In this document: in pieces, positions 17,103 through 29,854 of the stretch | How the letters are laid out: the number at the start of each line of letters is the position of its first letter | Position numbering within the stretch: position 1 is the first letter of the stretch | Assembly: GCA_937885075.1 (NCBI GenBank) | Contig: CAKZYZ010000061.1 | Coordinates: 1-39,671 of the forward strand | Direction of reading: 5' to 3' | DNA length: 39,671 nt | Origin: an uncultured bacterium | Lineage (GTDB): Bacteria > Auribacterota > Erginobacteria > Erginobacterales > Erginobacteraceae | Made by a program: the position numbers and the translations under genes | The notes under the pieces: generated by a model | Database searches by the model: none | The model's input: only the letters and a program-made list of their open reading frames with translations | What the model was told of the DNA's origin: nothing

Positions 17103-17143
17103 CTTATTTGACAGAACACGCTTGACGTGTTTTGTCAAATAAG
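17103..17143 (-). repeat. REP-like hairpin downstream of the transposase gene
   Basis: The arms CTTATTTGACA and TGTCAAATAAG enclose GAACACGCTTGACGTGTTT. It is the inverted counterpart of the hairpin at 18100-18150: both share TGACAAAACACGTCAAGCGT in opposite orientations. Confidence 0.8.
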
Positions 17144-18090: not shown

Positions 18091-18099
18091 GCTCTAACA

Positions 18100-18150
18100 A
18101 TATCCTTATCTGACAAAACACGTCAAGCGTATTCTGTCAGATAAGGATAT
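18100..18150 (+). repeat. REP-like hairpin upstream of the transposase gene
   Basis: Perfect 16-bp arms ATATCCTTATCTGACA and TGTCAGATAAGGATAT enclose AAACACGTCAAGCGTATTC. It starts 10 bp before the transposase start codon and mirrors the hairpin on the other side of the gene. Confidence 0.85.
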
Positions 18151-18204
18151 TTATTGTTTGAAATATATTCTGTATTTTTCGTTTTTTGGCTTGGGAATCG
18201 GGGT

Positions 18205-29490: not shown

Positions 29491-29517
29491 TCTTATTTTT
29501 TCAAAGAAAAAATAAGA
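29491..29517 (+). other. Perfect AT-rich palindrome just before the tRNA
   Basis: The arms TCTTATTTTTTC and GAAAAAATAAGA with loop AAA end 2 bp before the tRNA-Leu. It may form a leader hairpin in the tRNA precursor. The same palindrome type follows the RHH gene at 13822-13844. Confidence 0.6.
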
Positions 29518-29519
29518 TT

Positions 29520-29601
29520 GCCGAAGTGGTGGAATTGGCAGACACGCGTGGTTAAGGGCCACGTGGAGCAATCCGTGGGGGTTCGAGTCCCCCCTTCGGC
29601 A
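29520..29601 (+). tRNA. tRNA-Leu, anticodon AAG
   Basis: A complete class II cloverleaf can be drawn by hand. The acceptor GCCGAAG pairs with CTTCGGC (29594-29600) with discriminator A. The D stem is GTG/CAC with loop GAATTGGCAGA. The anticodon stem is CGTGG/CCACG with loop TTAAGGG, so the anticodon is AAG at 29554-29556. The variable arm is GGA-GCAA-TCC, and the T stem is GGGGG/CCCCC with loop TTCGAGT. CCA is not encoded. Anticodon AAG reads CUU and is uncommon in bacteria, where GAG is usual. Two broken copies follow directly. Confidence 0.93.
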
Positions 29602-29759
29602 TAGGGTGGAATTGGCAGACACCCCGAAAGCAAGCTTTCGGGGCGGGGCGCCTGCCCCGATGAAATCGGGGTGGTTAAGGGCCACGTGGAGCGATCCGTG
29701 GAAAAAGGGTTCTGCGCCAGAGGCGCATCAGCCTCTGGCTGAGAGTCCCCCCTTCGGCA
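29602..29759 (+). pseudogene. tRNA-Leu pseudogene with two hairpin insertions (copy 2)
   Basis: It retains TGGAATTGGCAGACAC, GTGGTTAAGGGCCACGTGGA and the 3' end TCCCCCCTTCGGCA, but lacks the 5' acceptor strand. A 48-bp insertion (29623-29670) made of hairpins CCCGAAAG-CAAG-CTTTCGGG and CCCCGAT-GAA-ATCGGGG splits the D arm from the anticodon stem. About 30 bp (29713-29742) with a perfect 9-bp hairpin GCCAGAGGC/GCCTCTGGC sits inside the T loop, and AAAAA precedes the T stem. Confidence 0.85.
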
Positions 29760-29854
29760 TTTGGTGAAATTAAGGGCCACGTGGAGCAATCCGTGGAAAA
29801 AGGGTTCTGCGCCAGAGGCGCATCAGCCTCTGGCTGAGAGTCCCCCCTTCGGCA
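29760..29854 (+). pseudogene. tRNA-Leu pseudogene with the T-loop hairpin (copy 3)
   Basis: It retains AATTAAGGGCCACGTGGAGC and the 3' end, but lacks the acceptor 5' strand and D arm. It carries the same AAAAA and the same T-loop hairpin (29811-29834) as copy 2. Copies 2 and 3 therefore arose by tandem duplication after the insertion, or from a common template. Confidence 0.85.

Follow-up and report, generated by a model that had tools for sequence, protein, structure and literature searches.

The window, by which we mean the whole 39,671-nucleotide stretch of DNA analysed here, contains a single tRNA gene, tRNA-Leu(AAG), directly followed by two broken copies of it, each with a palindrome in its T loop. 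The locus raises the question of how palindromes come to lie inside the loops of tRNA copies beside a tRNA gene that stays intact.

The tRNA-Leu locus of the window

The parent gene occupies positions 29520–29601 of the forward strand, on which all features of the locus lie (Rfam tRNA match; the ARAGORN call is 29519–29602). Its 3′ tail, nucleotides 57–73 (GAGTCCCCCCTTCGGCA, 29585–29601), is the stretch that is repeated downstream. Three bases separate the parent from copy 2 (29605–29759), which lacks the acceptor 5′ strand, and there is no integrase-bearing island between the tRNA and the fragment. Copy 3 (29766–29854) lacks the D arm. In both copies a 30-bp double-hairpin insert, TGCGCCAGAGGCGCATCAGCCTCTGGCTGA, splits the T loop (29713–29742 in copy 2 and 29808–29837 in copy 3) and is followed by the repeated 17-nt tRNA 3′ tail (29743–29759 and 29838–29854, respectively). 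Both inserts lie flush between GGTTC and GAGTCC, i.e., between T-loop nucleotides 56 and 57 (written 56/57 below; the slash marks the insertion point), and target-site duplications are absent.

The preliminary description of this DNA had placed two broken copies directly after an intact tRNA-Leu, with an insertion of about 30 bp exactly in the T loop of both. The mapped coordinates bear this out, and the anatomy of the two hairpin-split copies is confirmed as real. Some details needed adjustment. The perfect 9-bp stem ascribed to the insert exists, but two 15-bp hairpins, TGCGCC-AGA-GGCGCA and TCAGCC-TCT-GGCTGA, are an equally valid reading, and these two may fold together into a single long hairpin. 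The run AAAAA, said to precede the T stem, is present in both copies but interrupts the 5′ strand of that stem (29702–29706 and 29797–29801); the same run is found at the same T-stem place in a Leu-CAG copy on contig C172. Copy 2 does carry a further hairpin block between the D arm and the anticodon arm, of the GC-rich CCCCGA..TCGGGG type, but it spans 50 nt (29622–29671) rather than the 48 bp given for a double-hairpin insertion. Blocks related to it occupy D-loop or anticodon positions on contigs C172 and C122.

Distribution of inserts and split tRNA copies

A search of the whole assembly for the hairpin element and its sites, as the preliminary description had advised, retrieved 44 forward places of the 30-bp family. 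At nine of these places, a recurrence beyond chance, the hairpin lies within the T loop of a broken tRNA copy: two each of Leu-AAG (those of the window), Ser-CGA and Arg-TCT, and one each of Leu-CAG, Ile-GAT and Thr-TGT. The remaining places are mostly within a dispersed repeat, AAGTGCCTAAAGTT, which at loci L039–L083 flanks the 30-bp hairpin on both sides in direct orientation.

The 56/57 site of the T loop also accommodates a longer insert (52–68 nt), which is found in copies of Pro-TGG, Pro-GGG, Met-CAT, Gly-CCC, Ser-TGA and Leu-CAA. This longer insert has the two-hairpin frame of the 30-bp form with variable tips, and most of the inserts of this type from the phylum bear outer CGTC tags, which the 30-bp insert of the window lacks. 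In the 24 longer inserts available from all genomes, pair 5 is a T.C mismatch in hairpin 1 (16/24) and a G.A mismatch in hairpin 2 (19/24), i.e., mismatch polarity is inverted between the two hairpins. When 44 genomes of the window’s phylum were searched with a strict pattern for the long insert, all ten palindromic places were in T loops, and none was a dispersed copy; the remaining matches were confined to one strand and do not appear palindromic. Pairs 2 and 3, the outer pairs of the two-hairpin frame, were Watson–Crick in 240 of 244 cells among 61 distinct T-loop inserts, versus a mean of 147 and a maximum of 169 after shuffling, so the insert pairs covary.

A general pattern, consisting of the T-loop flanks and the two-hairpin frame, matched 5 of 44 genomes of the phylum (28 matches, 27 of them palindromic) and 8 of 39 genomes that were chosen because they carry the hairpin. 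In Bacteroidota 18 of 395 genomes were matched, eight with palindromic places and ten with one chance match each, and in Patescibacteria 4 of 379, three palindromic and one by chance. The built-in reversed-pattern control matched 1/44, 0/39, 2/395 and 0/379 genomes, respectively. Seventy-eight distinct places were examined as loci; 67 scored as palindromic, and removal of L547 as a chance match left 66. A same-strand tRNA is present in the locus at 60 of these, with the split copy downstream of the tRNA in 53 cases and upstream in 7. Five of the others lie at contig ends (L267, L276 twice, L286 and L586) and one is solitary (L292). None of the 11 clearly non-palindromic pattern matches had a tRNA in the locus. 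The insertion site in tRNA copies is predominantly 56/57 of the T loop; anticodon-arm and D-loop positions are also seen. Among viral carriers the strict 30-bp pattern gave no match, and the at least 120 stretches that matched a loose pattern were rejected as chance on a hand-worked expectation. A search for viral relatives of the GIY-YIG protein described below found none.

The tail equals that of the parent with at most one mismatch in 38 of the 53 downstream copies, and in 27 of these 38 identity stops 0–2 nt past the tRNA end. Inward of the insert, identity in the 38 copies extends over 6–15 nt (median 8), roughly the T stem, with five of the matching bases dictated by the search pattern. 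Similarity to the parent is lower in the remaining 15 downstream copies, as expected if copies decay. The seven upstream copies keep the 5′ part of the tRNA, and identity is lost 6–12 nt past the insert.

An integron-like transfer of tails between tRNA loci was considered and rejected, since 9 of 12 copies in the window’s genome are identical over the whole tail to the tRNA of the same locus, although two Leu copies among the nine are also identical to each other’s parent. Of the remaining three, two are upstream copies that no longer have a tail, and the third, of Leu-CAA, is equally similar to three tRNAs (15/18).

A further survey was unbiased in that it did not depend on the hairpin. The last 13 nt of each of 122 tRNAs (42 in G000, 37 in G009 and 43 in G018) were sought in the neighbourhoods of tRNAs, a procedure blind to copies upstream of the parent and to those whose end has changed, such as window copy 3. 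We found 26 distinct nearby tail copies (11, 6 and 9, respectively; two additional G018 matches, obtained with sister Ser tRNAs, duplicate a copy already counted), and all 26 are downstream of the parent and on its strand. The T loop is interrupted in 25 of them, mostly at 56/57 and in a few cases up to position 59 or 60; the exception is a Met copy of G009 whose T loop is unbroken. The insert families differ: some are of the TGTCCCGAGCG type, and the insert of a G018 Ser-GCT copy resembles that of E. coli rtT.

Some of the units have further features. At L531, L528, L534, L296 and L257 the parent tRNA is followed by a terminator-like hairpin with a T run, the split copy and a second terminator-like hairpin. 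At L081/L246 (C424) an inverted copy of the tRNA 5′ half precedes the split Thr copy. An inverted T stem (GAGAACC..GGTTC) occurs in several other units and also in E. coli rtT.

The preliminary description had further suggested that the palindromes enter loops because the element targets single-stranded loops of structured nucleic acid. Their recurrence at loops of tRNA copies stands; targeting of structured loops in general is not supported. The hairpin is widely dispersed outside tRNAs (at least 95 stretches were listed in a multi-genome scan, which is not a random sample), and dyad complementarity of the flanks of 95 listed copies from other genomes amounted to 297 matches, versus 300 ± 14 when flanks were swapped between loci. 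On this cross-locus shuffle, general targeting of palindrome centres was rejected. Dispersed copies do favour a TY/RA context (28/92 versus a background of 2.1%), and T55-C56/R57-A58 of the T loop fits this context too.

A GIY-YIG nuclease gene beside split tRNA copies

Several loci contain an ORF of about 80–90 codons that encodes a GIY-YIG protein (PF01541 match, E 1e-13 to 1e-20 for the three ORFs tested). Residues Y5, Y16, G18, R26, H30 and E62 are invariant in eight of these proteins, and the residues taken to be catalytic are intact. The protein consists of one small domain that resembles UPF0213 (1zg2, E 0.015).

A hidden Markov model built from six of the ORFs was used to search sets of loci that overlap in part. 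Matches came from 12 of the 79 T-loop loci (226 kb; 10 distinct places), from 3 of the 80 tRNA loci of the survey (150 kb), from 4 of 30 further tRNA loci and from 3 of 95 listed hairpin-scan loci (706 kb). No match was found at 83 dispersed-hairpin loci of the window’s genome, 18 Y1 transposase loci and 80 viral loci. Fifteen loci have a tRNA as well as the ORF; the two share a strand in every case, and in 11 of the 15 the ORF lies between two pieces of the same tRNA. As a within-genome control, 40 stretches (784 kb) of the carrier genomes G254, G160 and G137 were searched and yielded two GIY-YIG genes, both adjoining a tRNA on its strand; one of them is that of L558, already among the loci above, and one of the 40 stretches was included in order to complete the other gene.

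At L558 the ORF begins right after the tRNA end, and at L558, L543 and L544 its stop codon lies inside the T-loop hairpin. L543 holds an array in which two GIY-YIG genes and one decayed remnant each precede a split T arm with its tail. At L290 the ORF is flanked by an intact tRNA-Ala and by a 5′ fragment of tRNA-Ala whose cut end is at the anticodon loop, so this loop is used too. L469 also has the gene, and its nearest tRNA copy is split in the anticodon arm. The three genes of the 95 listed hairpin-scan loci are 84, 92 and 269 bp from a double hairpin; two of them, at L130 and L170 (84 and 269 bp), have no tRNA in the stretch.

At L130 the gene lies between 14-bp inverted repeats, ACCCCGTTAGAGAC and GTCTCTAACGGGGT. 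A general terminal inverted repeat shared by the GIY-YIG elements was sought and rejected: the best flank match averaged 8.9, versus 7.7 for mismatched pairs, and the excess of matches of at least 13 (3 of 19 flank pairs versus 2 of 56 mismatched pairs) is weak.

No GIY-YIG gene lies near most of the T-loop places, and the window is one of these. Among the examined loci of the window’s genome, the one gene of this kind seen is on contig C12 (L242), where it adjoins an Asp copy with other hairpins.

We propose that the window’s units, which have no ORF, are relics of a GIY-YIG element of the homing type that invades tRNA loops but spares one working tRNA, and we give this account an even chance of being right. 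A full unit would consist of the nuclease gene, a host-tRNA fragment with the palindromic double hairpin at 56/57 of its T loop, and the tRNA 3′ tail. The element would probably move as a homing endonuclease gene does: the nuclease would cut an unsplit tRNA loop, the break would be repaired by copying the element in, and the duplicated part of the tRNA would leave one intact gene. Subsequent loss of the nuclease gene would leave the hairpin-split copy and its tail, and slippage between repeated tails could add or remove tandem units, of which the window has two. Homing offers the simplest account of the nuclease gene, the split target copy and the intact target lying side by side. We infer that the nuclease drives insertion and that the window’s units once had its gene. 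The palindrome may be the end of the element, a later REP-type insertion at a TY/RA site, or a mark that blocks re-cutting.

GIY-YIG homing endonuclease genes (PMC1564403, of which an excerpt served for comparison) likewise pair a small GIY-YIG protein with an interrupted target copy, as do the ten distinct T-loop places noted above. The units described here differ in having no intron or intein, in their single small UPF0213-like domain and in a putative target that is a tRNA loop.

Alternative origins and known relatives

The alternative that survives best is that palindromes of the REP/BIME kind insert at short TY/RA sites, that T-loop insertions are tolerated only beside a tandem tRNA duplication that keeps an intact gene, and that the GIY-YIG gene is a passenger. 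Such an origin fits the TY/RA preference of the dispersed copies. It also fits the long insert, whose outer CGTC tags, opposed hairpins and inverted pair-5 mismatches recall the head-to-head order of CGTC-tagged REP dimers (BIME/REPIN) in an excerpt of PMC3733652. The short inner identity of downstream and upstream copies could be accommodated as well, because recombination across inner homology would destroy the good copy. However, TYRA alone is far too common to place 9 of 44 copies in T loops, an intact tandem duplicate was found for none of 42 distinct tRNAs, and the long form is seen in T loops only. Moreover, the association with the GIY-YIG gene is left unexplained. We regard this origin as unlikely. 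Compared with CGTC REPs themselves, the 30-bp form has no CGTC tag and the long form is not dispersed.

The closest anatomical relatives of the window’s units are the repeats of the E. coli tyrT/tyrV region, four of which are present in the finished K-12 genome. Egan and Landy and also Bosl and Kersten reportedly described these repeats; the latter work is cited in PMC4986893 and PMC2965389. The repeats too are tandem units downstream of a tRNA: an rtT unit consists of a T stem (AAGGTTCG), a 68-nt hairpin-rich insert and a tail with CCA (AATCCTTCCCCCACCACCA), so that the tRNA 3′ tail is repeated beside the tRNA and a palindromic insert sits in the T loop of the repeated part, as in the loci studied here. 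The E. coli insert differs in sequence and lies at 57/58, whereas the inserts here are of 30 or 52–68 nt and lie at 56/57; the E. coli region has no annotated GIY-YIG gene. In an excerpt of PMC2965389, a BIME cluster is reported to resemble rtT.

This likeness suggests another reading, namely that the units are small RNAs of the rtT type, released from the tRNA transcript and kept by selection, with the T-loop insert preventing action as a tRNA. The shared anatomy, the presence of RtT in 4680 of 5426 E. coli genomes and the covariation of insert pairs favour it, as do Northern signals for RtT relatives beside Asn and Lys tRNA genes (PMC4986893, in excerpt). Copy 3 and a 145-nt part comprising most of copy 2 also fold better than shuffled sequences (z −3.3 and −4.5, respectively). 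On the other hand, the Rfam RtT model (RF00391), applied to these loci at E up to 1, matched only the four E. coli units, and at the gathering threshold Rfam gave no family for the window. Within one genus, G001 has no pattern match and G002 has five (both assemblies are incomplete), T-stem pairing is lost at L252, L266, L281 and L293, and one E. coli strain has tandem tRNA-Tyr genes with repeats neither between nor after them. An origin as selected RNAs is in our judgement decidedly improbable.

Partial tRNA copies are familiar from tDNA islands (Islander, PMC4383910; PMC9897764; both in excerpt), where an intact tRNA is accompanied by a partial copy starting at a loop. The split copies might accordingly be displaced tDNA fragments (attR/attL) of tyrosine-integrase islands with a crossover in the T loop or anticodon loop, later reduced to a few dozen bases. 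The crossover sites are in the same loops, and 3′ fragments dominate among islands (3760 versus 159 in the excerpt of PMC4383910), as downstream copies do here (53 versus 7). But no island lies between tRNA and copy, the spacers, mostly of 14–70 nt, are too short for any gene, and a palindrome splitting the loop at the crossover position, as in 25 of 26 survey copies, is not predicted. We consider an origin from islands highly improbable.

The preliminary description had instead considered an HUH-type mechanism, in which a Y1 (RAYT-type) transposase would insert the double hairpin into the T loop as single-stranded DNA. The window’s genome has 18 Y1 genes, one of them in the window, and flush insertion without target duplication would suit such an enzyme. 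None of the 18 genes, however, adjoins a double hairpin of this type; their loci hold one single 15-mer hairpin. In addition, CGTC REPs are described without a dedicated transposase, as far as the excerpt of PMC3733652 goes. HUH/RAYT as the mobiliser was thus rejected, and we find this mechanism hardly credible; the GIY-YIG nuclease is the better-supported enzyme. The Y1 gene of the window (PF01797, 17149–18090, reverse strand) has palindromes of its own at 17103–17143 and 18099–18151, unrelated to the T-loop hairpin. Finally, although the window’s assembly is fragmented (434 contigs), an assembly artefact is very unlikely, because the anatomy recurs in many independent assemblies, where contigs reach 1.4 Mb, as well as in the finished genome of E. 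coli K-12.

All ingredients of the homing account have precedents, namely REP dimers, GIY-YIG homing genes, rtT repeats and displaced tRNA fragments. Short palindromes in structural-RNA genes, some without flanking duplication, are also found among mitochondrial repetitive hairpin elements (PMC2800124, in excerpt), although these organelle elements lack the tRNA-copy anatomy. In the open-access literature searched, we found neither hairpin-split T-loop copies nor GIY-YIG genes adjoining tRNA copies described, nor the combination of these ingredients. We tentatively suggest, as a possibility that falls short of an even chance, that GIY-YIG cassettes form a new class of mobile element which invades the tRNA T loop (and the anticodon loop), rebuilds the tRNA from a duplicated part, stacks in tandem and decays to palindrome-split tails; its relics would then include the tyrT/rtT repeats of E. 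coli and some of the short palindromes of bacterial genomes. For the tRNA-tail repeats after E. coli tyrT, long known without an origin, the findings give a shared anatomy and a candidate enzyme; they also offer a possible origin of short bacterial palindromes. The predicted nuclease would act on the motif that is most conserved in tRNA genes, yet leave the host with a functional tRNA. Annotators should note that a partial tRNA copy need not be an integrase scar.

AT-rich hairpins of the form TTATTTTT..AAAAATAA were also observed directly before and after tRNA genes, in the window at 29491–29517 and elsewhere at L237, L105 and L239. They are often edged by TTCAAAACTA or TAGTTTTGAA and possibly represent another palindrome family at tRNA borders.
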